Origin: a virus
Length of the DNA stretch: 25,296 nucleotides
Reading direction: 5' to 3' (one strand)
Virus record (IMG/VR): IMGVR_UViG_3300010233_000185
Location: 2,129 to 27,424 of that record
Shown here: positions 857-25,223 of the stretch, one piece after another
How positions within the stretch are numbered: position 1 is the first letter of the stretch
Layout of the letters: each line of letters opens with the position of its first letter
Program-made: the position numbers and the translations under genes
The notes under the pieces: generated by a model
Told to the model about the DNA's origin: nothing
The model's database searches: none
The model's input: the letters and a program-made list of their open reading frames with translations, nothing else

Positions 857-1105
857 TCAATCCATGTAATGATTACATTGAATGTAGCTGGGATTTCCGA
901 GTCGGGACAAAATTACATTTTTCTTGATTCTCATTCTTAGGCAGGCTGGAGCACCCATCACGATAATAGCGGAATCTCCTACATTTTCCCTGATGGGCGT
1001 GAGTTTACGTCCATCCCAGAGACAGTACACACATACCCTAGAAATTTCATCTCGGAAATATAGGAGGGTTTTATTCCCCATGTTCCATGTTATATGCTCA
1101 CTCAT
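857..1105 (-). CDS. Hypothetical protein, 82 aa
   Basis: The product starts MSEHITWNMGNKTLLYF and is 82 residues long, with mixed beta-like and basic segments (APACLRMRIKKNVILSRLG). No family is recognised. The ATG has AGGAG 9 bases upstream, and the gene overlaps the end of the UDG-exonuclease gene by 8 bases, so translation is probably coupled. A copy of the 13-bp palindrome lies in frame near the C-terminus, read as Cys-Asn-His-Tyr. Confidence 0.65.
   Translation of the reverse strand: MSEHITWNMGNKTLLYFRDEISRVCVYCLWDGRKLTPIRENVGDSAIIVMGAPACLRMRIKKNVILSRLGNPSYIQCNHYMD
865..877. repeat. Palindrome TGTAATGATTACA, copy 1
   Basis: Perfect copy. It lies in the last codons of the 857-1105 gene (Cys-Asn-His-Tyr). 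The inverted symmetry extends one base each side to ATGTAAT-G-ATTACAT. Confidence 0.9.
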
Positions 1106-2495: not shown

Positions 2496-2766
2496 GGAGT
2501 ATAGACTCCTCAGGGGATAATCCTCTGGTCAATCTTCCCTGTATAACTACATCAAATCCAAGTTCTAAAAGTATTCTGGCATGGCCTAGATGGGGATAGT
2601 GGGATACCCTACTTGGTGGAAGTATTTGCCCTACAGGGACTAGCACATTAGGGGTTCTCGTATCCTGCATGTACCAATAATAATTACCTACATCATATCT
2701 AACAGCATAGGGGTATTTATCCATCCAATCCAATTCATCCTGATCTGTAATTGCATGTGTAATCAT
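2488..2766 (-). CDS. Hypothetical protein, 92 aa
   Basis: The product is 92 residues, rich in Tyr, Trp and Asp in its first half (DKYPYAVRYDVGNYYWYMQD). No domain is recognised. The ATG overlaps the stop of the macro-domain gene (TAATG), which indicates translational coupling, and its 3' end overlaps the TTG start of the UDG-exonuclease gene. A one-mismatch copy of the 13-bp palindrome covers the start codon, so the protein begins Met-Ile-Thr. Its position suggests expression with the DNA-metabolism genes. Confidence 0.65.
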   Translation of the reverse strand: MITHAITDQDELDWMDKYPYAVRYDVGNYYWYMQDTRTPNVLVPVGQILPPSRVSHYPHLGHARILLELGFDVVIQGRLTRGLSPEESILLD

Positions 2767-2770
2767 TACG
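2758..2770. repeat. Palindrome TGTAATCATTACG, copy 2 (one mismatch)
   Basis: 12 of 13 bases match (final A to G). It covers the stop/start junction between the macro-domain gene and the 92-residue gene. Confidence 0.75.
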
Positions 2771-4760: not shown

Positions 4761-5239
4761 TTATTTAGGAATTCCCAAGCTAGTTTGTTCCATCTAGCAT
4801 CTGCTAGAGCGTTATGTTCTCCCTCTTTCTGCTCTGGTAATTTAGGATTTCCAAGGGAATCACATAACTGCTTAATATCCCGGCAGTACATTGGGAAACC
4901 TTTTGGAAGATCCATCATCGTCCCAAAGATTTGACAGAACACTACCCAGTCATAATCTGAATAATATCCCCAGAATTCTGGTTTATCAGGTTCACATCTC
5001 ATTACAAATTCAATAATAGATAAACCAATTTGATAAAGAGGGAGGGCTAGTAGCTTATCATCTTCTGTAAGAAGGGAGATAACATTATCGTGTACCCACA
5101 TACTTGCGTCATCCGGGTTAAATTCACTGCTGACAGCGTAAAACTCCCGCCCATCCTCACATACTATACCTATACTAATTAGTTGTATGGGAGATGCTGG
5201 CCCTGTTTCAATGAATTCAGTGTCAAGAAAATATTTCAT
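4757..5239 (-). CDS. RNase AS-like DEDDh 3'-5' exoribonuclease
   Basis: The 160-residue product has the DEDDh exonuclease motifs: D6-T-E8 in YFLDTEF, Asp95/Asp97 in GYYSDYDWVVF, and H142 to D147 in EHNALADAR. The order, the length and the ALADAR context fit the RNase AS (Rv2179c-like) family, which trims adenylate-rich RNA 3' ends, better than DNA proofreading subunits. The DNA or RNA preference is inferred. The ATG uses the last base of a 13-bp palindrome copy (5239-5251) as its A, so anything bound there would cover the start. It is flanked by the dNMP kinase and the ERCC4 nuclease. Confidence 0.75.
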   Translation of the reverse strand: MKYFLDTEFIETGPASPIQLISIGIVCEDGREFYAVSSEFNPDDASMWVHDNVISLLTEDDKLLALPLYQIGLSIIEFVMRCEPDKPEFWGYYSDYDWVVFCQIFGTMMDLPKGFPMYCRDIKQLCDSLGNPKLPEQKEGEHNALADARWNKLAWEFLNK

Positions 5240-5251
5240 GTAATGATTACA
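5239..5251. repeat. Palindrome TGTAATGATTACA, copy 3
   Basis: Perfect copy between the dNMP kinase stop (5255) and the RNase AS-like ATG (5239). It nearly fills the gap between the two genes and takes the place of a Shine-Dalgarno sequence. Confidence 0.9.
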
Positions 5252-6108: not shown

Positions 6109-6288
6109 TTAGGAGCCTCCCGGCCTTCTATTTGCCCTTAATATGGCTACATTCTGTGTAGCACATGGCCCAAACCACTTCCTCAGTTTATATGCCCAGA
6201 ACCACCATTGAGCATTCCTGTGCCCATCCTCTGCTATATGTGAGCGTAGGGCAGTTTCCCATTCATCTGTTTTTGTTGGTTCTTCCAT
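6109..6288 (-). CDS. Hypothetical protein, 59 aa
   Basis: The chosen start is the ATG at 6288 (MEEPTKTDEWETALRSH), preceded by AAAGGAAAA. A longer frame to 6321 has no better site. The product is 59 residues with a Trp-rich centre (NAQWWFWAYKLRKWFG) that could lie at a membrane surface, and a basic tail. It overlaps the small membrane ORF upstream by 26 bases. No family is recognised. Confidence 0.55.
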   Translation of the reverse strand: MEEPTKTDEWETALRSHIAEDGHRNAQWWFWAYKLRKWFGPCATQNVAILRANRRPGGS

Positions 6289-6442
6289 CACTTTTCCTTT
6301 TCCTCCATTTCTTATATTCATCTACTAACTCATCCCAAATGGGATAAAGAATAAAAGCAGCAAGAGTTATCCCACAGACTGTAATGATTACAAAGATAAA
6401 TATCCCTAGTGTGATACCTATAACAGCCCCCAATGTACTCAC
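6263..6442 (-). CDS. Small single-pass membrane protein, GTG start
   Basis: The frame starts with GTG overlapping the stop of the Sak4-like gene as GTGA and encodes 59 residues. A long hydrophobic segment (GAVIGITLGIFIFVIITVCG and on to AAFILYP) is followed by a charged tail (WDELVDEYKKWRKRK). The 13-bp palindrome lies inside the membrane segment, read as Val-Ile-Ile-Thr. Coupling by GTGA and the clean membrane topology support it as real. No family is recognised. Confidence 0.6.
   Translation of the reverse strand: MSTLGAVIGITLGIFIFVIITVCGITLAAFILYPIWDELVDEYKKWRKRKSDGRTNKNR
6380..6392. repeat. Palindrome TGTAATGATTACA, copy 4
   Basis: Perfect copy inside the 59-residue membrane protein gene, read as Val-Ile-Ile-Thr. 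Confidence 0.9.
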
Positions 6443-7332: not shown

Positions 7333-7957
7333 CAAATCTTCCTTCCTTTTCTTCTTTGTATGCCATTAGCAAACTCCAGTTATCCATCAATTCCTCTTCA
7401 GTGAACTCAATTAGCCAGCATCTTAGTTGGGGGGTAATAGGATAGGTATAATCCCCACACAGGAATAAAACATGCAGCATGGCCTTATTGGTTCCCTTAG
7501 CCAAGCAATATGATTTGATCTGTGCAAGCCACATCCACTGGGTACTAAGATCCCCCACTGTTTTGGTGCTTTTATATGTAGCCTTAATCTCATGGATGAT
7601 CTCTTCAAAACTCTGCTGCCGATCGGATACAAATAGATCAACGGATTCCCCGTCATGGGTCATATAGACCCCATCCAGAATCATCTCTCCGGGATGATCC
7701 ACCACTCCCATCAGTGGCCCAAGAATCTCAGGTATATAATACTGCTCCCAAGCTAAACCTATACTGATTCTTAAAATTGCTACTGGGTCTGTAATCTCAC
7801 GTACATCTATCAGGTTAACTTCATCCGCTATTTCGTACTTTAAAATCCCCGTCTCCGTAGCAATGCATCGGATTATTGAGGAAACATGTAATCCCTCTGA
7901 TCTAGGTACCTTAGATTCAGGGAGTGTAATGATTACAGGGATCTCAGTAGTTTTCAT
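7316..7957 (-). CDS. PD-(D/E)XK nuclease (RecB/Cas4-like phage exonuclease)
   Basis: From the ATG at 7957 the product is 213 residues. The nuclease core is MILDGVYMTHDGESVDLFV, followed by EEIIHEIKATYKSTK: an Asp, then Glu-x-Lys 25-30 residues later, with a downstream basic helix (WLAQIKSYCLAKG) typical of the family. Such phage enzymes resect DNA ends for annealing recombination. The gene lies between the SSB-like and Sak4-like genes. The ATG comes 2 bases after the stop of the 60-residue gene. A longer frame to 7987 would overlap it. A palindrome copy lies near the N-terminus as Val-Ile-Ile-Thr (residues 8-11). Confidence 0.75.
   Translation of the reverse strand: MKTTEIPVIITLPESKVPRSEGLHVSSIIRCIATETGILKYEIADEVNLIDVREITDPVAILRISIGLAWEQYYIPEILGPLMGVVDHPGEMILDGVYMTHDGESVDLFVSDRQQSFEEIIHEIKATYKSTKTVGDLSTQWMWLAQIKSYCLAKGTNKAMLHVLFLCGDYTYPITPQLRCWLIEFTEEELMDNWSLLMAYKEEKEGRFDAPAI
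7925..7937. repeat. Palindrome TGTAATGATTACA, copy 5
   Basis: Perfect copy at codons 8-11 of the PD-(D/E)XK nuclease gene, about 20 bases after its ATG. Confidence 0.9.
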
Positions 7958-9081: not shown

Positions 9082-9286
9082 TTACTGTCTCCTTTATCTT
9101 TCTCTTTTTTGGTTCTGTAGATGTGATTTGCCCACTGACAACCATTTGATGGTGTGTATTAGCAACATGCTGCTTTGCGGATATTTCAATTTCAGTATCA
9201 AATCCACATCCGCAATGAAATTTGATTATGGATTCTACCAGCAGTGGGACATGTTTATTCAGATGCACAATAGAGTGACTAGCCAC
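9056..9286 (-). CDS. Small C2H2-like zinc-finger protein
   Basis: The 76-residue product begins with GTG, overlapping the stop of the coiled-coil gene, with GGGGGA upstream. Its centre reads FHCGCGFDTEIEISAKQHVANTHH. The arrangement C-x-C, about 13 residues, then H-x4-H fits a small zinc-binding finger of the kind found in phage proteins. The tail is basic (EPKKRKIK), consistent with nucleic-acid binding. It overlaps the start of the SSB-like gene by 26 bases, so expression is likely linked. Confidence 0.6.
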   Translation of the reverse strand: MASHSIVHLNKHVPLLVESIIKFHCGCGFDTEIEISAKQHVANTHHQMVVSGQITSTEPKKRKIKETVSGITEKTY

Positions 9287-9581
9287 TAAATCCCCCAGAC
9301 TGCTCCGCTATAGTTCTTTCTAATCTCCAAAAGGGATCTTCCATTGCGCATTGTGTTGAATTATCCTGCTTATGATTAATTCTCCTATCTACTTCCTCCT
9401 TAAACATCATCTCGAATACTCTGTCATACCGGGACAGTTTGATCTCCAAAGCGTAGATACGCTGATTGACATGCCCAATTTCCTCACGGAGAACCTTAAT
9501 AACATCAACTATTGTTACTACGTTGGGAATTTTATTGGACTCTGCCCAAGGGTCTTTATCTGGCTTTTCCGTTCCGTCCAT
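9279..9581 (-). CDS. Coiled-coil hypothetical protein, 100 aa
   Basis: Residues about 20-66 (VTIVDVIKVLREEIGHVNQ, then LEIKLSRYDRVFEMMFKEEV) form a heptad-like helix that probably dimerises. The ends are polar. AAGGAG sits 6 bases before the ATG, and a perfect 13-bp palindrome abuts it, so a protein bound there would sit on the ribosome binding region. The gene follows the helicase stop by 18 bases. No family is recognised. Confidence 0.65.
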   Translation of the reverse strand: MDGTEKPDKDPWAESNKIPNVVTIVDVIKVLREEIGHVNQRIYALEIKLSRYDRVFEMMFKEEVDRRINHKQDNSTQCAMEDPFWRLERTIAEQSGGFSG

Positions 9582-9591
9582 TATTTCTCCT

Positions 9592-9604
9592 TGTAATGAT
9601 TACA
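9592..9604. repeat. Palindrome TGTAATGATTACA, copy 6
   Basis: Perfect copy in the short gap between the DinG-like helicase and the coiled-coil gene. On the minus strand it ends where AAGGAG begins. Confidence 0.9.
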
Positions 9605-11186
9605 CTAACGATTTAATTGCCGCCGGTCCTAATGGTGGGGGAGGCGGGGGTACAGTTGTTACCGTTTTATAGAATCCATGAAAGGATTTAGGAGCAAGGT
9701 GTCCATATCGAGGTAAGAACCATTCCATATGGGCATCTCCTATGAAACTCTCCCCTCTATCCTCTTTGGATCTCATAATCCGGCCAAACATCTGTACTAA
9801 GTTTTGCATTGCGCTGTAGGGTCCATACTCTTTGTCATCATGTTGACGTGCCTGTACGATCTTAGAGCGCGAATCCGGGAATGGTATTTTGCAGATAAAC
9901 TGCCATTCTGCATCTGATCGGGGAAAGTCATACCCTGTTCCTACACTGGGGCTTACGAGTATGGCTCCGGGTCCAGCGGCCCGAAATTCCTCTATGATCT
10001 CGCTGGGGGCTTCTCCTTTTTGATTGATAATCATGTTCCCGGAGAAACGGGATGAGGATATAACATCGTCTCTCCGGGTGTATGAAATTGTGTGTATGAT
10101 GCCCTTACGGTCTTGTCTACGTGCGGCTATTTGATCAAGCTTAACCCACAGCATTCTTAGATCTGGGTTGCGGCGATCCACTCGCATTGTGGGACTGTAA
10201 TAGATGGGACATCGCTTGGCATCGAAGTCAGAGTCAAACTCTTTGAACTCGAATTTATCCTTTCCGATTCCAAGCATAAACATGGTCTTTGGTCGAAGAG
10301 TAGCTGATGCAATAATAATCTTTGGAACTCTGAGGAGTAACGCAGCTTCGGCATATCTTCCCGGTCTGATTGGGTCAAATTGGAATCCTCCTTCTATCTC
10401 ATCTACTATCCATTCCCTTGGATTGCAGGTTGCTATGGTAGCCAGCCTACGGGATAGGTTACGCATATGGGTATAATGTCGCACCCATGAGGGTTTAGGA
10501 TCTGATACCCCTGTGATTCTAGCCTGTGCTGCTACCATCTCAGACTCAGCTTGTGCTCTAGCCTTTGCTGCCCAAGGTTTCCAGTTAGCTATATCAGAAG
10601 TGTAATCATTACGGGGGAAGTCCATTGCAAGATCTTTATTAATCTCATGGTGATTAAGTAGAACTTGCATAGCAGAGGCTAGAGCATCGAATGCGTCATG
10701 GCCCTCATCAAATATAACCTGCTGGAAGTGGGACATTCCCTGCCCATATTTCTTTGCGGCGCACCACTTAGCGTAGTTAGTTACTACTAGAGAGGATGTA
10801 GCTGCCCTCATCTCAGCTTGGCTAGAGGGGCATCCTATGGTTCCCTTATAGGGGCATCTAGCTGCATAACCTTCCTCACAGGTGTACTCAGCCTTTAGAT
10901 CACATTGGTAATTACGTCTACCCCGAATATCTACCATCCCTATTTCTTTGAATGTATCCAGGTATTGATCCTGTAATCCTCTGGAATTAGTTACGATGCA
11001 GGTAGGAACTTTTGAGAGAAGTGCTGTAGCTACTAACGCGGGGCCTTTTCCAAATCCTGTAGGCGCAGATATAGAAGTAACCCGCTTGGGATTACTTATG
11101 GCTAGGGATATAGCCTCCTCCTGCCCCGATCTCCATTGGGAAATGGATTCCGGCATACCAATTTCGGCTGGTTTTGGGATCTTCAT
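9600..11186 (-). CDS. DinG/XPD-like superfamily 2 DNA helicase
   Basis: The 528-residue product has the layout of DinG-type helicases: Q-motif region (WRSGQEEAI), Walker A at about 41-48 (APTGFGKG), a four-Cys iron-sulphur segment (CDLKAEYTCEEGYAARCPYKGTIGCP), the DEAH-type box FDEGH, LVSPSVGTGYDF, and motif VI QMFGRIMRSKED. These enzymes unwind DNA 5' to 3' and resolve R-loops or forks. Two oddities: Walker A ends GKG instead of GKT/S, and the C-terminus carries a run of six prolines (VPPPPPPLG), which normally stalls ribosomes without EF-P. No Shine-Dalgarno sequence precedes the ATG. A strong promoter lies about 20 bases upstream, so the leader would be very short. Confidence 0.85.
   Translation of the reverse strand: MKIPKPAEIGMPESISQWRSGQEEAISLAISNPKRVTSISAPTGFGKGPALVATALLSKVPTCIVTNSRGLQDQYLDTFKEIGMVDIRGRRNYQCDLKAEYTCEEGYAARCPYKGTIGCPSSQAEMRAATSSLVVTNYAKWCAAKKYGQGMSHFQQVIFDEGHDAFDALASAMQVLLNHHEINKDLAMDFPRNDYTSDIANWKPWAAKARAQAESEMVAAQARITGVSDPKPSWVRHYTHMRNLSRRLATIATCNPREWIVDEIEGGFQFDPIRPGRYAEAALLLRVPKIIIASATLRPKTMFMLGIGKDKFEFKEFDSDFDAKRCPIYYSPTMRVDRRNPDLRMLWVKLDQIAARRQDRKGIIHTISYTRRDDVISSSRFSGNMIINQKGEAPSEIIEEFRAAGPGAILVSPSVGTGYDFPRSDAEWQFICKIPFPDSRSKIVQARQHDDKEYGPYSAMQNLVQMFGRIMRSKEDRGESFIGDAHMEWFLPRYGHLAPKSFHGFYKTVTTVPPPPPPLGPAAIKSLV
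10601..10613. repeat. Palindrome TGTAATCATTACG, copy 7 (one mismatch)
   Basis: 12 of 13 bases match (final A to G). It lies inside the helicase gene, read as Arg-Asn-Asp-Tyr, and so is not tied to the Val-Ile-Ile-Thr frame. Confidence 0.7.
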
Positions 11187-11244: not shown

Positions 11245-11529
11245 CTATTTTGCTTTTCGTAACCAAATATTCCCAAATCCATAGGTTTCGGACCTGACTG
11301 GCTTACGGGGAGTCTCTGTAATGATTACACCGGGAGAGAGGGAGTCTATGAGGTCAATGAAGTTCTCTTTGAGGATCAATTCAGCAGCATGTCGGAAGCA
11401 CGGCATACCTTCAGGTAGCATATAGATCAGGCCCCTCTCCATCCATACTTGTCTAACCTTATTAGTCTTCCTTAGTTCTAAATATGCGTATACAGCCCTA
11501 GATAAGGTAGCATCATCTGTTGGTATCAT
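11245..11529 (-). CDS. Hypothetical protein, 94 aa
   Basis: The product starts MIPTDDATLSRAVYAYLEL. Two helical stretches (ATLSRAVYAYLELRK and RHAAELILKENFIDLIDSL) and a basic C-terminus are visible. No family is recognised. The ATG overlaps the stop of the XRE gene as ATGA, so it is probably co-expressed with the regulator and may work with it, for example as an antirepressor or co-factor. That is inference from position only. A perfect palindrome copy lies in frame as Val-Ile-Ile-Thr (residues about 68-71). Confidence 0.6.
   Translation of the reverse strand: MIPTDDATLSRAVYAYLELRKTNKVRQVWMERGLIYMLPEGMPCFRHAAELILKENFIDLIDSLSPGVIITETPRKPVRSETYGFGNIWLRKAK
11317..11329. repeat. Palindrome TGTAATGATTACA, copy 8
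   Basis: Perfect copy inside the 94-residue gene that follows the XRE regulator, read as Val-Ile-Ile-Thr. Confidence 0.9.
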
Positions 11530-11822
11530 CTACTTATCCTTAGGTATTGTATAAGCTGGAATAGAGTATCGGAGTCCATATCCAGTTTCCTGGCCATCCT
11601 TACTAGTACTCGTACACTGGGAGTACGGCTACCAGAGAATATCTTAGATATATAGGATAGGGACAGTTCTAAGTCTTCTGCCAGATGGGACATATCCAGC
11701 TTAACTTGCCCATAGAATCCCTTTTCTAGGTTATATCCTGAAGGGATTACTACCTTATGCCTACCACTGGGGGGATTAAACTGTCTTTTTTCGGCGTTAT
11801 ATCTGTCGGGTATGCTAAACAC
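11526..11822 (-). CDS. XRE-family helix-turn-helix regulator, GTG start
   Basis: The 98-residue product carries a Cro/CI-type helix-turn-helix at about 45-69 (SHLAEDLELSLSYISKIFSG, then SRTPS), followed by the usual third and fourth helices (VRVLVRMARKLDMDSDTLFQL). The first 35 residues are a basic extension (RHKVVIPSGYN). There is no Shine-Dalgarno sequence. The GTG lies a few bases after a predicted transcription start, so the mRNA may be leaderless. Its promoter contains a perfect copy of the 13-bp palindrome over the -35 box. This makes the protein the best candidate in the window to bind that palindrome and to control itself, but direct evidence is lacking. Confidence 0.8.
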   Translation of the reverse strand: MFSIPDRYNAEKRQFNPPSGRHKVVIPSGYNLEKGFYGQVKLDMSHLAEDLELSLSYISKIFSGSRTPSVRVLVRMARKLDMDSDTLFQLIQYLRISR

Positions 11823-11831
11823 AGAAAGGGT

Positions 11832-11861
11832 ATTGTATCACATTAAATGTAATCATTACAA
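11832..11861 (-). promoter_or_regulatory. Promoter of the XRE gene with overlapping palindrome
   Basis: On the minus strand TTGTAA (11861-11856; 4 of 6 to TTGACA), an 18-base spacer and TACAAT (11837-11832; 5 of 6 to TATAAT) lie just before the GTG at 11822. The palindrome at 11848-11860 covers the -35 box and part of the spacer, the classic place for a repressor. Confidence 0.55.
11848..11860. repeat. Palindrome TGTAATCATTACA, copy 9
   Basis: Perfect copy upstream of the XRE gene, overlapping its predicted -35 box and the stop codon of the gene before it. Confidence 0.9.
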
Positions 11862-12451: not shown

Positions 12452-14173
12452 TTATTTTACAGTAACCGTCAGTAAAGACCAATTTGCAGAGTTGTCGAAA
12501 CTGATCGGATATGAGCCTATCCGCGTGGACTGCTGATCGAAGATTTGTTCATCCCAATTCTGATTTTGTGAACAGAGCGTCGGGCTCGGACAGTTCGATG
12601 GGATAAACCAGCCATTCTGCGGATTCAGCGTGTTGACGCTGAGGAGCCCAACCGTATGCAGCAATTCCGTTGCTTGGGTGGTTGTGAAGTTTGCGCCGGT
12701 AGGAACTGTGCCGGTGCCTGCTACGCCGGATGGATGCTGGTCAACCGCCGTAACTCCTGCAATCTCCCGCGCGAATACAACGAAGCTTTGTCCCGCAGCG
12801 CCGCTCGCGGTAATAACGATCGATGTCCCTGTAGTAGCAATTCCGAAACAGGTATAGACCGCCAGGACGCCTGCCTGTGGAGTCGTCGTCACATAGGGGC
12901 TGTTGGCTGTTGCTGTACAGGTATCGGTACTGTGCGCAACCGAAACCAGCGTTACCGTTGGGCTTGTGGATTCAATGATTATATCGACAAGCAGTGTGTT
13001 TCCGGCCTTTGGCGCGGACCCCAAGGTACAAGTGACGACAGGACCAGCCCCGAACCCCCCGCACTCCGTACCCTGAACGCCCGGAACAGGCCCGAAGATC
13101 CCTTGGTACTTCGACCCTTGCAGGCTGATTAACCCGCTGACGCCATTGATCTGATTGTAAATCTGTTGTGTGAGTGGATGCTGTGCGGCGACCGTAGCTC
13201 CCCCGCTGACGTACTCGTATCCCTCTTCAAACATCATGATTCCACCGTAGCCGTTTGCTAGGGCATAGGCGGTTATCGTCTGAAGTGCCTCAGGGCCGGT
13301 GAAAGGCCACCATAGGCCCGCTCCTGGTATGCACCCGTTCGAGACATATTGCGAGTCCCACTGGTAGGTTGAAAGGCAAGCCACCGAGCCGAGCACGTTG
13401 TAATATCCGAAGTAGGAGACGGCCTGATAGGATGGCGGCGCTGGCTGAAGGACATAGCTCGTATTCCCCCATTCGCGGGCATAGTACGGTACCCCGACGC
13501 CGATTTTAGACTTCGGCACTCCCGCCGTTGTGAAAAGACCCAGCCGGTAAATGCATCCCAGATATGTCGGAGTACTGTCGTTCGGGTAAGCGTGCAAGGA
13601 GCCGTTGTACCAGCTTTGAGCCGTCCCAATATCTTGGTCATAACACTCTACATTGACCTGATCGAGTTTGGCATATTTCGCCCCGGCGACCGTCTCTTGC
13701 GCCGAATCCCCATAGACGGCCATCGTTATGACACCCCCCGGATGGTAGATCGTATCAAGAGCGTCAATCCACGCTTCATAGTCTCCAGGAACCTCAAGTG
13801 ATTCTAAGTCAAGGTCCACACCGTCGTACCCGTCCGCCGTAGTAAGTGTGTGAATATTTCCAACAAATGTACTCAGATTCCCCGACGTAATACATGCTGC
13901 CACGTTTGCCGCAGGAAGGCCAATCGAGACAATGGCTTTCTTTCCAGCCGCGTGCGCTGCCGCAGTGAACACCGTTGGCGAGACAAGGCCGGAAGTATCC
14001 AGACTGCAATTTGAATTCGTCAGAACAGTGCCGTGTATGCCAAGGGAAATCAGGGTCCAAGGCATTGAGGTAACTGGCATTGTGCTAACGCTGTCTGGGA
14101 TGTTGTAATCCGATACCCAGAACGTCGCCCCAAGTTGGGACGCGAGGATAAGAAATAATCCGAGTCGTTTCAT
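12452..14173 (-). CDS. Secreted GH18 chitinase-like glycosidase with C-terminal accessory domain
   Basis: The 573-residue product has a signal peptide (about 1-17) and a glycoside hydrolase family 18 barrel to about residue 355. The catalytic DxxDxDxE motif is present as DGVDLDLE (D117, D120, D122, E124). KIGVGVPYYAREW and GLWWPF, GGIMMFEEGYEY give later barrel strands. GH18 enzymes cleave beta-1,4 bonds next to N-acetylglucosamine with substrate-assisted catalysis. The C-terminal ~210 residues are a separate beta-rich domain nearly duplicated in the next gene upstream (14170-14940). In a tail-gene cassette the enzyme probably degrades a cell-surface or environmental polymer. The gene is GC-rich compared with its surroundings and contains no palindrome copy, which suggests recent import. 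The start is coupled by ATGA. Confidence 0.85.
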   Translation of the reverse strand: MKRLGLFLILASQLGATFWVSDYNIPDSVSTMPVTSMPWTLISLGIHGTVLTNSNCSLDTSGLVSPTVFTAAAHAAGKKAIVSIGLPAANVAACITSGNLSTFVGNIHTLTTADGYDGVDLDLESLEVPGDYEAWIDALDTIYHPGGVITMAVYGDSAQETVAGAKYAKLDQVNVECYDQDIGTAQSWYNGSLHAYPNDSTPTYLGCIYRLGLFTTAGVPKSKIGVGVPYYAREWGNTSYVLQPAPPSYQAVSYFGYYNVLGSVACLSTYQWDSQYVSNGCIPGAGLWWPFTGPEALQTITAYALANGYGGIMMFEEGYEYVSGGATVAAQHPLTQQIYNQINGVSGLISLQGSKYQGIFGPVPGVQGTECGGFGAGPVVTCTLGSAPKAGNTLLVDIIIESTSPTVTLVSVAHSTDTCTATANSPYVTTTPQAGVLAVYTCFGIATTGTSIVITASGAAGQSFVVFAREIAGVTAVDQHPSGVAGTGTVPTGANFTTTQATELLHTVGLLSVNTLNPQNGWFIPSNCPSPTLCSQNQNWDEQIFDQQSTRIGSYPISFDNSANWSLLTVTVK

Positions 14174-14940
14174 TTGATGGACACCGATAGCAAAGACCAG
14201 TTCGCGGCATTGTCAAACGTCGTGAAGTATGGCCCGGTTGCGGTTACGATCTGATCGAAAATCTGCTCCTCCCAGTTTTGGTTCTGCGAACAGGCGGTAG
14301 GAGAAGGGCAATTCGCCGGGATGTACCAACCGTTCTGGGGGACTAGAGAGCCCACGCTTAACAGGCCATTCGTATGCAGGAGTTCGTTGGCTGTCGTAGT
14401 CGTAAAACTCGTACCCGTTGGCGTTGTACCAGTCCCACCCGCGCCCGTTGGATGTTGGTCTACTGCCGTCGCATTCGCCAGTTCCCTCACAAAGGCGATG
14501 AAGCTTTGCCCCGGCGTTCCGCTAGCCGTGATGACAACTGCGGTCCCCGTAGTGGCAAGATTGAAGCACGTCCAGATCGACAGCACTCCGACTTGTGGGT
14601 AGGTGGTCGTGTACGGGCTGTTGGCGGTAGCTGTGCATGACGTGCTATCTCCCGTATGGACCACCGAGCTTATGGTGATTGCGGGAGACGTAGACTCAAC
14701 GATGATATCCACCAGAAGAGAATGCCCCGATCCCGTAGCGGGGGCGTGTCCGAGAGTACATGTGATGGCAGGACCCGCCGCGAATCCGCCACACTCGGTA
14801 CCTTGAACAGGCTCCGGCACAATTACAGTAGGCTTGCCATTGTGGGGGAATGCGGTAACAATCTGCCCATTAAGACTGATCATTAATAAAAGTGTAATGA
14901 TTACAGTCTTGAGCATTATAAATGGGATCAGGATTTTCAT
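14170..14940 (-). CDS. Secreted beta-rich protein, paralogue of the GH18 C-terminal domain
   Basis: The 256-residue product has an N-terminal signal peptide (the hydrophobic run [18 protein letters not shown] begins at residue 9). One domain follows that closely matches the C-terminal domain of the GH18 protein: both contain VQGTECGGF, then GPxxTCTLG, DQHPxG, LLHTxGLLSV, CSQNQNW and EQIFDQ. Conserved cysteines and aromatic residues suggest a secreted beta-sandwich, perhaps carbohydrate-binding, though that is not shown. The ATG overlaps the upstream stop as ATGA. A palindrome copy in the signal-peptide codons is shared almost base for base with the neighbour at 14937-15686. The 5' end is AT-rich and the body GC-rich. 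Confidence 0.7.
14891..14918. repeat. Leader repeat A (pairs with 15661-15688)
   Basis: 28 bases, 27 of them identical to 15661-15688. They encode the start of a signal peptide, Met-Leu-Lys-Thr-Val-Ile-Ile-Thr, and contain the 13-bp palindrome. Only the first few codons are shared; the gene bodies differ. Confidence 0.85.
14893..14905. repeat. Palindrome TGTAATGATTACA, copy 10
   Basis: Perfect copy in the signal-peptide codons of the 14170-14940 gene ([10 protein letters not shown]). It is part of a 28-base segment repeated at 15661-15688. Confidence 0.9.
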
Positions 14941-15686
14941 TGTGGCAAGCTAAACGTAATGACAATACGAAGGCTCTTGGTCGTGCCGTCCGCTGTGCTG
15001 ATATTATCGTCAATTGTGCCAAGACTCCCAAGCGTTGGTGTACCGTTTAGCGTTCCGGTGGCCCAACTTCCAGTCCCGCAGGTAAGTGCTCCGGTCAGGA
15101 TAGAATTCGATCCTGCACCAGTGATGATCGGATTAACGCTCGTAGCACCACTTACATTCAAACATTTAACGGACGTAATTGTGGCCGTCTGCCCGAAGAC
15201 GTTGTAACAGGAATAGAGTTCGGAATCGATAGCCTGAATCACTCCTGCTGCACCGCTGCCAGTGATGTGAACTTCACAGGATCGGACGAACGCAGACAGA
15301 GGAAGCATCTGCGCGACGATGGCCCCAGCGGAATTAACCTCAACCGGCAGATGCAAAGTGCTGTCAAAGCACATAGCTTCTGAACCAGTCGCCGGGGGTG
15401 TGATCATCGTGCAGTCCTGCTCCGCACCTTGCGCGAGGAATGCACCAGTGGGAACAGGGGGTCCAGTTGCCCCCGTTACGCCCGTCGTCCCTGTATCACC
15501 TTTGGCCCCAGTTGGGCCGGAAGGTCCGGTTGGGCCAGTGGCTCCTGTTGGACCTTGACTGCCACCTGAGTTATTAGATCCAAATATACGGGTAGGCCCA
15601 TCATTTATCTGCTCTTGAGCATACGCCGAGAATGCCACATACCCAGAAACTAGTACTAGGAGTGTAATGATTACAGTCTTAAGCAT
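14937..15686 (-). CDS. Secreted collagen-like protein
   Basis: The 249-residue product has a signal peptide ([20 protein letters not shown], Ala-Tyr-Ala-Gln near cleavage) and a linker. It then has about 12 Gly-X-Y triplets ([20 protein letters not shown] and on to TGATGP, about 45-80), then a Gly/Thr/Ser-rich C-terminal domain. Collagen-like stretches in phage tail fibres form trimeric stalks. With a signal peptide, however, the protein might be exported by the infected cell. The gene starts at the TAATG overlap with the preceding stop and ends in ATGA with the next. The palindrome lies in codons 5-8. The 5' end is AT-rich and the body GC-rich. Confidence 0.75.
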
Positions 15687-15688
15687 TA
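15661..15688. repeat. Leader repeat B (pairs with 14891-14918)
   Basis: The second copy of the 28-base leader, one base different, at the start of the collagen-like gene. Confidence 0.85.
15663..15675. repeat. Palindrome TGTAATGATTACA, copy 11
   Basis: Perfect copy at codons 5-8 of the collagen-like gene, read as Val-Ile-Ile-Thr in its signal peptide. Confidence 0.9.
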
Positions 15689-16189
15689 GGGCTGTGTCCT
15701 TTTCCCATAAAACTCAATATAAGCATTCCCTGTAACAGTAGATATAGTTATACTCAAATTGGTATTGATCCCTGTATTACCCATTAGGTAGGTAGGATAA
15801 TAAACAACTACAGTGCAAGCAGCGTTACACACATCAGCATCAATTACTGTTCCACCTGATAAGGTTACTGCTGTCCAAAAGGTTACTGTTAGAGGAGTTA
15901 CATTAGGGACAGTGCCTACTGGAATAACTGTTCCAGCAGTACCGCTTGATCCCGTTACTCCAGTAGCGTTCTGAGTCTGAGTTACTGTACACGCTGCGGG
16001 GCAAATAATCTTGGCATACAAAACAGTAATCTGATCTGCAACAGTAGCAGGTTGTTGGAGAGTAGCCGTAGTCCCAGCAGAGGATAGGTTAACTGCCCCC
16101 GTTCGGGCTACAAAATAAGTAGGGAGTTGGCAGAAAGCTGGAATGGAGTAAAGAATCAAAATACTTACTAGTCTTTTAAATGTAATCAT
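15686..16189 (-). CDS. Small secreted beta-rich protein, 167 aa
   Basis: The N-terminus ([20 protein letters not shown]) is a signal peptide, and Cys20 near its end might be a lipidation or disulphide residue. The mature part is Thr, Val and Ala-rich with alternating hydrophobic strands and four further cysteines arranged as two close pairs (CPAAC, CNAAC). This suggests a beta-sandwich with tight loops. The start codon lies inside a perfect palindrome (5' TGTA-ATG-ATTACA), with GGGAGA upstream. No family is recognised. It lies between the tailspike and the collagen-like gene and may be an accessory tail or secreted factor. Confidence 0.65.
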
Positions 16190-16193
16190 TACA
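16181..16193. repeat. Palindrome TGTAATCATTACA, copy 12
   Basis: Perfect copy. On the minus strand it contains the ATG start codon of the 15686-16189 gene. Confidence 0.9.
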
Positions 16194-16207: not shown

Positions 16208-18493
16208 CTACCTACAAGCGGTGGTCTTTCTAACTATATTGTCGGAACCGTCTATGCAAACAAAATCAAAAGCACTAGATGTAGTGGGAATATTCACGTT
16301 AAAATTTCCTCCACTAGGAAGACCAATTGAGTAGGTCTTGGTGGGGGAAGTTCCAGTACCCAAGAGGAGTTGCTCTGTAACTGTGGGGAATTGTATAGCC
16401 GCTCCATCCCAATAGGTGCCTCTGTAGACAATAGGAGAAGAGCTATAATTACCTGAAATACTTGTAGCGTGACCTAATTCCCCAGCAATACCCAAGGCAA
16501 CTGGAACAGAAGTATTCTGAGGGGGCATAAAAGGAAACAGAAGATTATATGTGGGAGGGGGAGTATCAGGCCCAGAAGAGTTCTGGCTTTGCCATGTTAG
16601 GGGTTGTAATTTCCCCATATTATCTACATAAAAAGTTGTGAAACTTAAACCTGAAGGGGTTGTACCACTAATAACATTAACCTGCTGATGATAATCTGCC
16701 GGGAAGGATTGTTCGTAAGAAGCACTGGGATAATCCCCACTCATATTTCCGGGTATTTGAACCCCATTTACAGTGTCATTAACGAACAAAGTGTATAGAT
16801 AGGGGGACGCTTGGTACTGAAACATATTTCTTACCGCAGATCCAATAGTGTTGTTTTTTATTAACACAAGTTGGGGCTTAGGAGTTGGTGGATTGCCTGA
16901 GGCATTGGCTGGGAGTTGATCTATAATTACTTTGTTACTTGTAGATAGAGACACTCCCAAGTAATCATCCTCATCTTCTAGCATATTAAGATGGACATTA
17001 GCGCACTGAGAGCAATAGAATCCAGCATTGGGATCTCCGTCTGCATCCACATATGTCCCATTTGGATTTATATACTCTGCATTAGCTATCCCAGTCCAAT
17101 TAAGACCTACTACTCCATCCAGTTCTATTCCCGGACCCTGTGTAATAGCTACCGCTTCAAAATCTCCCATTGAGAGTAACCCAGAACTGCTAACTGTGTT
17201 GGGAAGAACAAGACCCCGCTTACCACAATTGATAACAACTGATTTATCTATATTTGATCCCTGTGCCCCATAGAATTTAATACCGGATGAGCTAGTATTA
17301 TTCCCATAGTAAAATCCCCCATTACAGTCCACCCAGATATGATTAATAATGGTCCCAAAACTAGCATTACCCCCCTCTGAATCCGGTATTACAGATAGCT
17401 CATATACTTCCGATCCACTTGTAGCCGTTCCCTGAGGCATAATAAAAGCTGTCATTGAAGGGGTAGAAGCAGTGATAGGAGTTAAGGTAGAATGCAGCCC
17501 AAAGTTATAAAATCCAACACCCTGTAGGGTAATCCCAGTGGAATATGCTACAGGATTCAATAGAAATGAACTCTGGGGAAACTGAAATTCACATACACGC
17601 TCCGGGTCACCTGTAACGAGTAGATGCCCATTGGGGTTAGCTGGGCAGGCATTTGCTGCTGCAAGGAATGCAGCTTTGTTAGTTGCCCCGCTTCCTGTTA
17701 CTGTCATTCCAAATTGGGTAGGTCCATAAACATTTGGTACCCCATTTGGGAATGCAAAAGAGAAATGTGTACCATCAAAGTTTGAGGCATCGTAGAATTG
17801 CTGCACAAGGGGAACAGTCGTATTCTGGGGCATATTAATTGTTGCCCCAGCCGCCGCTTGGATAGTACCTCCAAGGGACACAATATTACACCCAATAGTA
17901 GCCAAGTCCTCATTAGCTACGTTTAGCCAATGTTTGACAAACCCCAGAGGAACTCCAGTAGATTTTGATGCACTGCAAGCGGCTAATGGGGATGTGTAAA
18001 GGAAGTCCCAGATATATGTACTCCGTAGGGTAGTCTGGACAGTTGAAGTAGTAGACCCAACTTCGCTGAATCCTATGTAGGATGCCCCATTAGCCCCAGC
18101 CAACAAAGCTTGTAATAGGGATACCTGATTACAGATATTGTCCTGAGTCCAAAGAGTTACTGCCTGAGAATTCTGAGCTACAAACTTATAGCAGTTAGCC
18201 CCAATCCATATACCTGTTATAGTGCTGCCATTAACTGCATACCCAGAGGAATCAGTCCTCACTGGATTAGTATTAGGGGTAGTAAGAGTAGAATCTGTAT
18301 AGGTAGCTAGGAGGTTAGAGGTACCAGCATAGTATGTATACACATAACATCCAACACAGGGCAGTGCTACCCCAGTTGAAGCATCAATAAGCTGATATGG
18401 GGTAAAAGGTGCCGGTATCTGTGCGGGGGCTGTAATGATTACACTAAGTGCAATCACAGCCCAAGCAAGCACACGCCAAGCTAACAGTTTCAT
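16208..18493 (-). CDS. Tailspike-like protein with N-terminal signal peptide
   Basis: The 761-residue product has a signal peptide (about 1-25, ending TAPAQ). Next comes a region like the particle-binding part of podovirus tailspikes (PYQLIDASTGVALPCVGCYV, then LLATYTDSTLTTPNTNPVRT, about 30-75), and then a long Asn/Gly/Ser-rich central part with features of a right-handed beta-helix (HIWVDCNGGFYYGNN, IKFYGAQGSNIDKSVVINC). Such spikes bind and often cleave surface polysaccharide. The catalytic residues are not identified. A Sec signal on a tailspike is unusual. A promoter with a palindrome copy lies in the gap before it (18531-18555), and a second copy sits in the signal-peptide codons. Confidence 0.75.
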   Translation of the reverse strand: MKLLAWRVLAWAVIALSVIITAPAQIPAPFTPYQLIDASTGVALPCVGCYVYTYYAGTSNLLATYTDSTLTTPNTNPVRTDSSGYAVNGSTITGIWIGANCYKFVAQNSQAVTLWTQDNICNQVSLLQALLAGANGASYIGFSEVGSTTSTVQTTLRSTYIWDFLYTSPLAACSASKSTGVPLGFVKHWLNVANEDLATIGCNIVSLGGTIQAAAGATINMPQNTTVPLVQQFYDASNFDGTHFSFAFPNGVPNVYGPTQFGMTVTGSGATNKAAFLAAANACPANPNGHLLVTGDPERVCEFQFPQSSFLLNPVAYSTGITLQGVGFYNFGLHSTLTPITASTPSMTAFIMPQGTATSGSEVYELSVIPDSEGGNASFGTIINHIWVDCNGGFYYGNNTSSSGIKFYGAQGSNIDKSVVINCGKRGLVLPNTVSSSGLLSMGDFEAVAITQGPGIELDGVVGLNWTGIANAEYINPNGTYVDADGDPNAGFYCSQCANVHLNMLEDEDDYLGVSLSTSNKVIIDQLPANASGNPPTPKPQLVLIKNNTIGSAVRNMFQYQASPYLYTLFVNDTVNGVQIPGNMSGDYPSASYEQSFPADYHQQVNVISGTTPSGLSFTTFYVDNMGKLQPLTWQSQNSSGPDTPPPTYNLLFPFMPPQNTSVPVALGIAGELGHATSISGNYSSSPIVYRGTYWDGAAIQFPTVTEQLLLGTGTSPTKTYSIGLPSGGNFNVNIPTTSSAFDFVCIDGSDNIVRKTTACR
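18431..18443. repeat. Palindrome TGTAATGATTACA, copy 13
   Basis: Perfect copy in the tailspike signal-peptide codons, read as Val-Ile-Ile-Thr (residues 18-21). Confidence 0.9.
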
Positions 18494-18525: not shown

Positions 18526-18555
18526 ATTACATTATCCCACAATGTAATGATTACA
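18526..18555 (-). promoter_or_regulatory. Tailspike promoter with operator-like palindrome
   Basis: On the minus strand TGG-GATAAT (18539-18531) matches an extended -10 element (5 of 6 for TATAAT). No good -35 is present. The perfect palindrome at 18543-18555 lies directly upstream, and an extra half-site makes the inverted repeat ATTACATT-ATCCCAC-AATGTAAT (18526-18548), so three half-sites cluster around the -10. The tailspike ATG follows about 38 bases downstream. Confidence 0.5.
18543..18555. repeat. Palindrome TGTAATGATTACA, copy 14
   Basis: Perfect copy in the 63-base gap between the ferritin-like gene and the tailspike gene, the largest gap in the late block. It starts 2 bases after the ferritin-like stop as transcribed. 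Confidence 0.9.
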
Positions 18556-19056: not shown

Positions 19057-20832
19057 TTACTCCATATTACCTATACGACTCATATCTGCCCTAGTGAGAG
19101 TACCATGATCTTTAATAGCATCTTTTATAGCCGCAATCTGTTTCTCAGATAAATCTGTAGATCTTTGCAATCCCTGCATAGAGGAGGGAGTGCCGGTCTT
19201 AGGGGAAACTTCCCTAGTGCCTTGATTGCGTAAATTCTGATACCGGGGAGGGGGGACTTGGAATTCCCTAGTAGCAGGATTAACAGTAGTATTACCTGCC
19301 CCCGGATTAGATTCCAGTAAGGGTACTCCACTAGACCCAGATCCCCTCATTGTCCTACCTAAAATATCTGGAACAGTAGTACCGGATACACCAATCCCAG
19401 AGGATGCAGGGGGAAGTAATCTACCTTCTACATACTGCCTATCCATAGCAGTAGGATCTACCCCATGCACAAAACTGGTATCTACAGGAGGGCCAGTGTA
19501 GGGAGCTTTAGGCAGATACCCTTTAACATTTGGGGTATTAGCAGGAGCCGGATGAGGGGTAGTATCCCCCACATTTTTCATAGCCGCTTCAATATAGGCA
19601 TCTGAATTAGTTGGGCTAACATCCCCTTGCCGGAATATCCTAGCGTGATTCATAATATCCTCACGCAATCCAGCTAATGGACTAACAGCGCTCTGACCGG
19701 CAATTGCAGCCTGCTTATCAATAGCTGTATTGAGGAGATTAGCAACCCCCCCATACCTCTTCTGTATCTCTCTTGGACCTGCTCCCCCATTCTCGGGGTC
19801 CAACATCTTATACAGAGTATCCCGTAATGCCCTAGCCTTAGCCTCTTCCTCCGCTACATTAAGCCCAGAGGCAATAGCTGCATTTTGCTTACCAGTGGGG
19901 GAGTTATAATATCCATTGAGTTTGGCATTAGATTCCTTTAGCCTCTTCTCAAGCTCATCCACAGTAAAGTTACGATTCCATGTAGATGCTCTATCCGCTA
20001 CAGCGTTATAGGCTCCCGGATTCTCCTGCTTTAGAGTATCCCCAGCAGCATCCAACATAGCTTGGCCTATACTAGATCCACTAGTCTGCTTACCAATATC
20101 TCGGGGGATAGCCTTCCAAGTCTCTAAATCATTCCTATTCTTCTGTAGATAATTCTTAGCTGCATCAATTAGATCTGCATTAGAGCTAATAGGACCGGAT
20201 GCAGTTGACTTCACATCCTTTAGAGCCTGATCCAATGTATTTATATCTACTGCATTAGGGCCATACGCTCTAATCATTGCAGTAGTAGGATTTGCAGCAG
20301 TAGCTTTAGCGGGCAGTCCAGCAGCCCCCTCTACAGCAGATGCCCCTGCATCCCCTAGCTTCTTCATCAGATAGAGTTTGGCTAATCCCCCCACCGTAGT
20401 ACCTAATGCTCCCGCTTTATCCCCACTCTTATACTGTGCTGATACTCCTTCATATCCGGGAATTATATACTTAGCCGCAGTATCCGCAGCGGATTCAAAG
20501 TCCCCAGACTTTAAGTGATTAGTTAGTTCATCCAAGGCTTGTGTAGTTTTAGCCTTGTTCTCTTTAAACTGTTGGGCATCCTCATCCGCACTAACTAAGT
20601 GGGGAGTAGTAGCTTTCAGATATTCCCATAAGCCAGATGCTACCTCTGCTGGATTAACTTGGCCCCAAAGACTGGGCAGAAATCCCTTAGATTCCTCCTT
20701 AGGTGTAATCATTACACTCTTGGGAGTCGAATCCACATAATGTTCATATCCGGGGGGAGGGCCACTAAATCCCAGAGAGGGGGAGTCTACATAGTGTTCA
20801 TATCCCGGAGGGGGAGCTATATTACTTCCCAT
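19057..20832 (-). CDS. Large ejection-type internal virion protein
   Basis: The 591-residue product is Ala, Gly, Asn and Pro-rich with long helical middle sections (LDQALKDVKSTASGP, VAEEEAKARALRDTLYKML), of the kind seen in podovirus internal core or DNA-ejection proteins. It opens with a tandem repeat of PPPGYEHYVDS (residues about 7-17 and 25-35). There is a possible short membrane-active Gly/Ala segment (GALGTTVGGLAKLYLMKKLG), and the C-terminus is Pro/Ser-rich and probably disordered. The gene overlaps the neighbouring ejection gene by 11 bases. A palindrome copy lies just after the second repeat (Val-Met-Ile-Thr). No specific family is recognised; the role is inferred from composition and position. 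Confidence 0.55.
   Translation of the reverse strand: MGSNIAPPPGYEHYVDSPSLGFSGPPPGYEHYVDSTPKSVMITPKEESKGFLPSLWGQVNPAEVASGLWEYLKATTPHLVSADEDAQQFKENKAKTTQALDELTNHLKSGDFESAADTAAKYIIPGYEGVSAQYKSGDKAGALGTTVGGLAKLYLMKKLGDAGASAVEGAAGLPAKATAANPTTAMIRAYGPNAVDINTLDQALKDVKSTASGPISSNADLIDAAKNYLQKNRNDLETWKAIPRDIGKQTSGSSIGQAMLDAAGDTLKQENPGAYNAVADRASTWNRNFTVDELEKRLKESNAKLNGYYNSPTGKQNAAIASGLNVAEEEAKARALRDTLYKMLDPENGGAGPREIQKRYGGVANLLNTAIDKQAAIAGQSAVSPLAGLREDIMNHARIFRQGDVSPTNSDAYIEAAMKNVGDTTPHPAPANTPNVKGYLPKAPYTGPPVDTSFVHGVDPTAMDRQYVEGRLLPPASSGIGVSGTTVPDILGRTMRGSGSSGVPLLESNPGAGNTTVNPATREFQVPPPRYQNLRNQGTREVSPKTGTPSSMQGLQRSTDLSEKQIAAIKDAIKDHGTLTRADMSRIGNME
20704..20716. repeat. Palindrome TGTAATCATTACA, copy 15
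   Basis: Perfect copy about 40 codons into the ejection-type gene 19057-20832, read as Val-Met-Ile-Thr. Confidence 0.9.
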
Positions 20833-23748: not shown

Positions 23749-23978
23749 GTATTAGAGGCTAACCAAGTAGCCATCTCCCCAATAGTCTTAAACTGTACCA
23801 ATTGTTCATCTGGGATCTTAGTTTTAAAGGTAGTCTCAATCTGACCTATAGCCCAGAGAGTCTCTAGGGAATCATTGCCCAGTAAGGACATGGGAGAATC
23901 CATAGAACAGGGTTCATCTAAAATTTCCTCTATAGCTTGAAGTGTAATGATTACACTTTTGGGGGATACCAGGGTCAT
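23745..23978 (-). CDS. Acyl carrier protein-like protein
   Basis: The 77-residue product has the size and the signature of an acyl carrier protein: LLGNDSLETLWAIGQIETTF, with Ser37 of the DSL motif as the expected phosphopantetheine site, followed by IPDEQLVQFKTIGEMATWL, matching the IPDE-x(6)-T(I/V)G(D/E) end of the fold. The N-terminal helix includes a palindrome copy (Val-Ile-Ile-Thr). ACPs carry acyl chains for fatty-acid, polyketide and some acyltransferase reactions. No synthesis genes are nearby. The next gene is a GNAT acyltransferase, so the pair may transfer an acyl group from ACP to a target. The start overlaps the upstream stop as ATGA. Confidence 0.78.
   Translation of the reverse strand: MTLVSPKSVIITLQAIEEILDEPCSMDSPMSLLGNDSLETLWAIGQIETTFKTKIPDEQLVQFKTIGEMATWLASNT
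23943..23955. repeat. Palindrome TGTAATGATTACA, copy 16
   Basis: Perfect copy at codons 9-12 of the acyl carrier protein-like gene, read as Val-Ile-Ile-Thr. Confidence 0.9.
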
Positions 23979-24380: not shown

Positions 24381-25223
24381 CTATAATCTGAACCAAAGCT
24401 TAGAGTAAAAACTAGCAGGGGTACCATCTGCTCCAACACTAGTCACAGCATTAAAATCTGAGCCATTTGTTGCCCCATGAGTTCCTACACTGGGGGCAAC
24501 AGCAATATGAGTTAGTCCATCCCCAGCACTTCCTACAGCTAGAAATACCTCAGTAGTTATATTGGGTAGGGTCTTAGCTGTTAGGGTACCGTTAGCATTA
24601 AGGTAGTTAACTATAGATCCATCACAGGCATGCCAACCATTTCCCGGAGATACATCAGCTACTATGTAGATATTACTAGGATCACCACAGAAATTAAAAG
24701 TGGCTCCATCCCAAAACAGTAAGTGATAGTAGTCGGTGACATATACAAAACTATTAGCTTGCAAAGTGGCAGAGCTAGGGAACATAGCTTGGGTCCGTAT
24801 AAGTACCTGTTGGGGACTAAACGGAACAGGTCTATTCCTTAGATAAGATCTGGCTAGAGCAAGTGAACTTTCATCAGATAGTGTATCTATAGATGATTGG
24901 GGTATTCTGGGATACTGAACTGGGGATTGCCTTCCTACTGTCATAAGAGCCATTTTCATAGCTCCCTCTATAGCAGCAAATCCAGGCATCTCCTTAGCTG
25001 CCATTAATGCCCCTACAAAGGCTGTAATGATTACACCTTGAGCACTAGGACCTTGGCTATTTGTGGACCAATTAACTGAGGGCTGAACAGCATCTCCGGG
25101 ACAGTTGGCAATATTACCCGCTATAGCATTAAACCACTTTTGCCAAGTAGTTTTGATTGACCCATCCTCATTCCAGATAGGCCAATCTATAATAGGGGCT
25201 CTACCAATAGGGGGATCATCCAT
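24381..25223 (-). CDS. Tail-collar-domain-like protein
   Basis: The 280-residue product has an N-terminal segment with IDWPIWNEDGSIKTTWQKWF, common at the start of small phage tail proteins. A central region reads FVYVTDYYHLLFWDGATFNF. The C-terminal segment SPGNGWHACDGSIVNYLN, with TLPNITTEVFLAVGS, matches the phage tail collar pattern (GWxxCDG and LPNxxxxF). It is therefore probably a receptor-contacting or fibre-attachment protein. The ATG overlaps the stop of the preceding gene (TAATG). A palindrome copy lies at residues about 63-66 (Val-Ile-Ile-Thr). Confidence 0.65.
   Translation of the reverse strand: MDDPPIGRAPIIDWPIWNEDGSIKTTWQKWFNAIAGNIANCPGDAVQPSVNWSTNSQGPSAQGVIITAFVGALMAAKEMPGFAAIEGAMKMALMTVGRQSPVQYPRIPQSSIDTLSDESSLALARSYLRNRPVPFSPQQVLIRTQAMFPSSATLQANSFVYVTDYYHLLFWDGATFNFCGDPSNIYIVADVSPGNGWHACDGSIVNYLNANGTLTAKTLPNITTEVFLAVGSAGDGLTHIAVAPSVGTHGATNGSDFNAVTSVGADGTPASFYSKLWFRL
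25023..25035. repeat. Palindrome TGTAATGATTACA, copy 17
   Basis: Perfect copy in the tail-collar-like gene, read as Val-Ile-Ile-Thr. Confidence 0.9.

Follow-up and report, generated by a model that had tools for sequence, protein, structure and literature searches.

ParB-family clamps are known for the segregation of chromosomes and plasmids and, on the plasmid RK2, for long-range gene silencing. The RK2 operator O_B, TTTAGCSGCTAAA, is present at 12 sites; Noc has many dispersed sites, and the site sequence of Noc and ParB differs from the palindrome described here. The following accounts are taken from excerpts of the cited papers. For KorB clamps, a reach to promoters at distances of up to 1.5 kb has been described (PMC11790492). 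The stoperators of cluster A mycobacteriophages (L5) are 13-bp sites that are found up to about 30 times per genome, mostly not at promoters, and their motif drifts between relatives along with the repressor (PMC6550527). SPBRE of the Bacillus prophage SPbeta is a repeated intergenic element whose reader, the phage protein MrpR, was identified long afterwards (PMC10516654). SopB of N15 is a phage-encoded ParB-family protein with several centromere sites, IR1-4 (PMC7205306). As far as these excerpts go, stoperators and SPBRE are the nearest phage analogues of the sites reported here, and N15 is the nearest phage ParB case.

In the present work a stretch of viral DNA of 25,296 nucleotides (the window) was analyzed together with its relatives. 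These phages resemble the KorB-KorA system of RK2 in having a ParB-family protein, short palindromic sites (in RK2 over a replicon of about 60 kb) and a small DNA-binding protein as a possible partner, and the KorB reach of up to 1.5 kb is close to their site spacing. They differ from RK2 in that no ParA was detected, in that the longer records hold 19-57 evenly spaced sites instead of about 12, in the long predicted coiled-coil arm of the phage protein, and in the partner, which is of the XRE fold class and not a KorA. Noc and ParB of bacterial chromosomes provide the closest solved folds and have the ParB N domain and the helix-turn-helix (HTH) in common with the phage protein, whereas the latter is phage-encoded and the ParA-binding motif is missing from 16 of 16 sequences. 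Stoperators are asymmetric and oriented, their repressor is not ParB-like and their phages are temperate, whereas the sites described here are palindromic. SPBRE sites lie at promoters and MrpR has a recombinase fold, while N15 is a plasmid prophage with four sites and a ParA (SopA). No earlier description of dispersed palindromes together with a phage-encoded ParB was found in the open-licence papers searched.

The palindrome and the XRE gene in the window

The palindrome TGTAATSATTACA is present in 15 perfect copies in the window and in none of 100 shuffles, so that its scattering over the genome with a copy in front of the XRE gene, as proposed in an earlier sequence-only reading, was borne out. 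When up to one mismatch was allowed, 18 palindromes were found in the window's record (G000; 29,878 bases). The positions are presented in Table 1. The same reading had assigned a clear HTH to the XRE open reading frame, and this was confirmed by an HTH_3 match of 35.7 bits (cut-off 23); four helices can be observed in the fold model at residues 44-97, with a pLDDT of about 90 or more in that part.

It had also been suggested that the XRE gene controls itself from a promoter whose -35 box overlaps the palindrome. The boxes, the 18-base spacing and the overlap are as described, and the pair, with 9 of 12 consensus matches, is no more than expected by chance: 3 such pairs are found in 1.3 kb, compared to 3.4 in shuffles, and 78 pairs across the window, compared to 88.7 on average under a Markov null. 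In the relatives, the palindromic site lies anywhere from -9 to -119 relative to the XRE start, and thus no fixed promoter geometry can be recognized at this gene.

Table 1. Palindrome copies and genes discussed in the text, in window coordinates.
Feature	Position	Strand	Remarks
Palindrome copy	865..877		upstream of RHH-like ORF
Near-copy TGTAATCATTACG	2758..2770		across start codon of ORF 2488-2766
Palindrome copy	5239..5251		abuts start codon of ORF 4757-5239
Palindrome copy	6380..6392		59 bases upstream of ORF 6109-6321
Palindrome copy	7925..7937		barely within ORF 7316-7957
Palindrome copy	9592..9604		junction of helicase stop and ORF 9279-9581
DinG-type helicase (phrog_2488)	9600..11186	-	syntenic marker used for finding relatives
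Near-copy TGTAATCATTACG	10601..10613		within helicase gene
Palindrome copy	11317..11329		within ORF 11245-11529, 131 bases upstream of helicase start
XRE-type HTH protein	11526..11822	-	98 aa, GTG start; HTH core about residues 42-98
TACAAT, proposed -10	11832..11837	-	5/6 to consensus; spacer 18
Perfect palindrome TGTAATCATTACA	11848..11860		26 bases upstream of XRE start
TTGTAA, proposed -35	11856..11861	-	4/6 to consensus; shares five of six bases with palindrome
Palindrome copy	14893..14905		11 bases within called start of ORF 14170-14916
Palindrome copy	15663..15675		11 bases within ORF 14937-15686
Palindrome copy	16181..16193		contains start codon of ORF 15686-16189 (TGTA-ATG-ATTACA)
Palindrome copy	18431..18443		50 bases within ORF 16208-18493
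Palindrome copy	18543..18555		50 bases upstream of ORF 16208-18493
Palindrome copy	20704..20716		within ORF 19057-20832
Palindrome copy	23943..23955		within acyl-carrier-like ORF 23745-23978
Palindrome copy	25023..25035		within ORF 24381-25223

Several other features of the record were observed. A phosphopantetheine-carrier protein, unusual for a phage, is encoded at 23287-23978 (PF00550, 34.6 bits, above the cut-off), amid structural genes and adjoined by a GNAT-like ORF (17.6 bits, below the cut-off). The HNH endonuclease at 3284-3790, with a weak AP2-like match and on the strand opposite to its neighbours, is probably a homing endonuclease. A glycosyl hydrolase family 18 protein (54 bits) at 12452-14173 is a possible structural protein that degrades a host polymer, and its C-terminal part resembles, by eye, the adjoining ORF 14170-14940. 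To the left of the window, at G000 bases 3-1276, polA is called as two overlapping pieces, pointing to a frameshift, an intron or a sequencing error.

Relatives and variants of the motif

No confirmed match was obtained when the window's XRE protein was used as a query against viral contigs, and the helicase served better. Of the viral contigs identified by a helicase profile search, 22 share 53-71% identity and four (L031-L034) are distant, at 24%; one further relative, treated as a phage contig, is 45 kb long and comes from a MAG with the label Patescibacteria. Megablast of the window against cultured phages gave no match, and the helicase relatives among cultured phages are less than 60% identical, with about 27% for the best one. 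In one relative (L029, 8091-10523) the helicase appears by eye to be split by an intein with an endonuclease-like part, and an intein-like insert can also be seen by eye in polA of G011.

The top-scoring palindrome was a form of the same motif in all 24 records found through the helicase, the window included. The distant relatives L031-L034 lack the motif and were excluded from later counts; L034 carries a different repeated palindrome, TATTG-4-CAATA, in 8 copies in 21.5 kb. Most records have GTAAT arms, and the variants are GTAAC (G005 and G006), GTAGT (G011), GTAGC (G019), forms of TGTAAnnnTTACA (G003 and G009) and an even spacer, TGTAATCRATTACA (G004). A scan with the ParB profile alone added the contigs L136 (G029) and L142 (G028), both with dispersed palindromes (11 and 38 sites, respectively); the motif of the latter is a new variant, TGTATAnTATACA, present in 49 kb as 26 perfect copies and 9 near ones. 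Additionally, G030-G033 were included from motif matches: G031 and G032 were fetched because of the motif, while G030 and G033 also hold core genes. A further record (G034) was found and left out of the analysis. In total, 628 sites were called in 30 records, with genes called by a simple script of our own.

Position and spacing of the sites

The sites prefer gene junctions. Of the 515 sites in the first 24 records, 224 fall within called genes, compared to 441 expected by rotation, and 189 lie 60 bases or less from a called start, compared to 74 expected; in 21 sites the start codon is inside the palindrome, with the TGTA-ATG-ATTACA offset. The idea that long genes strictly require a site in their interior was rejected, since interior sites are no more frequent in long genes than in others. 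No enrichment was detected at sigma70-like pairs (8/81 against 10.8 expected; 25/188 against 24.9), a consensus that may not be that of the host. The palindrome was also considered as a promoter element, and this was rejected because no -10 or -35 element is conserved at a fixed distance from the intergenic sites; TTGACA at +8/+9 is confined to a small subset (20 of 223). The central base of these 223 intergenic sites is C in 112, G in 89, and T and A in 11 each.

The mean spacing of the sites in the long records is 1.07-2.4 kb, and it is more even than uniform random placement (p<0.05) in 15 of 16 of them, the exception being G002 (0.056). The combined Fisher p is 3e-24, or 2e-20 when the null distributes the sites over gene junctions, values that are too small because the records are related. 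With a 300-base exclusion built into the null, the evenness is significant (p<0.05) in 5 of 14 records, with a sixth at 0.050, and thus part of it consists in two sites rarely lying close together. Of each long record, 76-100% lies no more than 1.5 kb from a site, the distance that KorB can reach, compared to 69-93% with random placement.

A ParB-like protein in the relatives

We consider it most likely, with a probability of roughly 0.64, that the palindromes are parS/O_B-like sites read by a phage-encoded protein of the ParB/KorB family, whose gene would lie just past the left end of the window's record. The ParB-like family was found by protein clustering (13 records). Its matches among PHROGs include phrog_1033, "ParB-like partition protein" (E 1e-16), and also 3264, 4715 and 6218; its profile matches Spo0J (6e-11), Noc (7e-10) and KorB (1e-7) in the PDB, and the model (pLDDT 82.6) resembles Noc and ParB in fold (E 1e-8). 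The scores of the Pfam ParB domains are under their cut-offs. The protein has about 420-460 amino acids and consists of a ParB N domain, a ParB-type HTH, a long coiled-coil arm and a small C-terminal domain. The arm, at about residues 199-338 of the predicted model, is presumably longer than usual for ParB. The patterns G..R..A (missed in G001 and G015) and E/xN..R (missed in G016 and G004), which may correspond to the canonical CTP-binding motifs of ParB, are each present in 14 of 16 ParB-like proteins.

The ParB-like protein was identified in 16 of 30 records, including all 11 of 34 kb or more. It is encoded on the other strand than the helicase in all 15 records with both genes; seen from the helicase, its gene lies beyond polA in the nine unpermuted records with a called polA (four records are permuted and two have no called polA). 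In G000, which ends at polA, no ParB gene was found, and synteny would place it outside this record. ParA (PF13614) was not detected in 15 records, nor was the ParA-binding motif, as defined in an excerpt of PMC12704722, in 16 ParB-like proteins; with both missing, classical partition is unlikely. Among cultured phages, no match to the ParB of G018 was better than E 5e-4 (14 records, all weak), and that of G001 gave none. G001 also has a second short ORF (L038, 19615-19884), adjoining the full gene, whose match to the ParB-like protein is confined to the C-terminal domain.

Covariation of the motif with candidate readers

The distances between motifs were compared to those between proteins. 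In 14 records that encode both ParB and XRE, the correlation was 0.73 (p 1e-4; partial on the helicase 0.64, p 0.001) with the longer ParB HTH block, which was picked after the alignment had been seen and was the only block that stood out, and 0.41 (p 0.03; partial 0.14, p 0.25) with the XRE HTH block. In a larger set (n 20), the XRE HTH correlation is weak (r 0.40, p 0.006). With the recognition helices alone, the values are 0.54 for the 18 columns of ParB (partial 0.31, p 0.10) and 0.50 for XRE (partial 0.31, p 0.08). A sweep of 678 protein windows in ten core proteins, performed with 13 records (G012 was dropped as a near-duplicate of G002), gave 0.81 for UDG, 0.77 for polA and 0.77 for the ParB HTH. 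XRE was the worst of the ten, its best window having r 0.28 and rank 461 of 678, a rank also depressed by the fast evolution of this protein. As UDG and polA windows equal the ParB HTH, much of the covariation may reflect shared descent, and the sweep speaks against XRE more than it provides proof of ParB.

The variation of the ParB helix with the motif arms is suggestive at the sequence level. In eight records, GTAAT arms go with the helix SNSFINM or a close form; the phages with GTAGT or GTAGC arms or an even spacer have SN[SA]W, the phage with GTATA has SNSYLNI, and G009 has SNSHINM. In G015, G016 and G029, GTAAT arms are kept despite LMN or MMN forms of the helix replacing FIN.

Alternative explanations

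A sharper form of the ParB reading, overlapping with it, is a joint system analogous to KorB-KorA, in which ParB clamps would load on the palindromes and XRE, with an operator of its own, would act as a clamp-locking co-repressor. We regard it as possible, if somewhat doubtful. Both genes are present in all 11 records of 34 kb or more, and in RK2 the small DNA-binding protein KorA locks KorB near promoters, according to an excerpt of PMC11790492. The XRE gene often has a site upstream: in 16 of 23 records one lies between -120 and +20 relative to the start of this gene, as compared to 211 of 855 called genes (binomial p 7e-6, independence assumed), so that the reader of the site probably controls the gene. 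In the seven records without an upstream site, the XRE proteins are similar to the others. Against the joint system, an operator proper to XRE was not identified, the XRE protein belongs to the HTH_3 family, and two records seemingly have no XRE.

Improbable, in our opinion, is the explanation that an XRE dimer is itself the repressor, binding the palindrome, controlling its own gene through 11848-11860 and silencing the phage from the dispersed copies in the manner of stoperators. Its gene is syntenic, with homologues upstream of the helicase in 23 of 27 helicase-holding records (two of the four without a match, G017 and G019, end at the helicase), its PDB neighbours include 8bny, "immunity repressor protein" (1e-6), and SinR, and the upstream-site excess and the weak HTH correlation given above also count in its favour. 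The XRE proteins, however, are only 18-30% identical to that of the window (alignment of 17), and the recognition helix takes the forms TSHLSM, KSYLSY, VAALSF, NTYLSR, QSWLSR and PNHLSR amid the same TGTAATnATTACA motif; the correlation is gone after control for the helicase and XRE ranks last of ten proteins, and the sites are not enriched at promoter-like pairs. Relatives that keep the motif and lack this protein, named beforehand as evidence against XRE as the reader, may be represented by G007 and G021, both fragments, in which palindromes are kept and no XRE match was found in 4.3 and 8.1 kb upstream of the helicase. At the XRE place of G007 (L015, 3924-4211) there is a reverse-strand protein of 95 amino acids with a weak HTH match (13.3 bits, cut-off 27).

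No integrase was found above the cut-off on the phage contigs tested: PF00589 matched in 2 of 24 records, all of them fragments, sub-threshold in G006 and strongly in G027, there on another contig of the bin, and PF00239 matched in none of these 24 fragmentary records. The proposal of a classical immunity repressor is unsupported, and so is that of XRE as the binder, given its varying helix and its place in the sweep; control of the XRE gene by the binder of the site is the part of the self-control proposal that appears credible. The sequence-only reading had preferred XRE to an RHH-like protein as the binder. The latter is indeed set aside, being present, among 30 records, only in G000 and G019, plus one match at E 0.97, and the ParB-family protein, found in 11 of 11 long records, is a better candidate than XRE.

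A host factor or another core phage protein, such as a nuclease, a polymerase or an SSB-like protein, might read the palindrome for replication, recombination or packaging, and this we hold to be quite improbable. The core replication proteins UDG and polA track the motif as well as ParB does, and sites are also found in coding DNA (224/515). Against such a reader, these protein families are not known to read palindromes, the motif differs between related phages, which is hard to square with a fixed host factor, and the sites favour gene junctions. An RNA hairpin or terminator between genes, to which palindromic form and junction position would be suited, is very improbable, because departures from the arm consensus break the pairing in 124 of 134 cases (six records), as expected of a DNA site, and moreover copies lie within coding DNA and no T run follows the site beyond +9.

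Proposed function of the sites

Under the ParB reading, the palindrome upstream of XRE would be one of 15-19 parS/O_B-like sites dispersed over the phage genome. We infer that a ParB/KorB-like protein would load at each of them as a DNA clamp and then slide; with one site per 1.1-2.4 kb, such clamps would cover nearly the whole genome. This coverage could silence transcription at gene junctions, or time it, in the fashion of KorB on RK2, or alternatively the clamps could organize the genome in the fashion of Noc and ParB. Silencing seems slightly likelier, given the junction preference and the site upstream of XRE. The XRE gene itself stands at the head of the replication module and in most records has a site a short way upstream; XRE is thus probably under the control of the sites, perhaps as a KorA-like partner, and not their main reader. 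This would correct the obvious reading, by which an HTH gene beside an operator encodes the repressor.

More tentatively, a ParB-family clamp that has a long coiled-coil arm and works without ParA may, from an even array of loading sites, coat the whole genome of these tailed phages in the host. If so, they would have a chromatin-like layer that serves global silencing, timing or protection, with a site code drifting from phage to phage as immunity specificities do. They would then provide many natural variants for matching a protein helix to a DNA site, and one could test directly with them whether a viral genome is regulated or protected by its coat of clamps.
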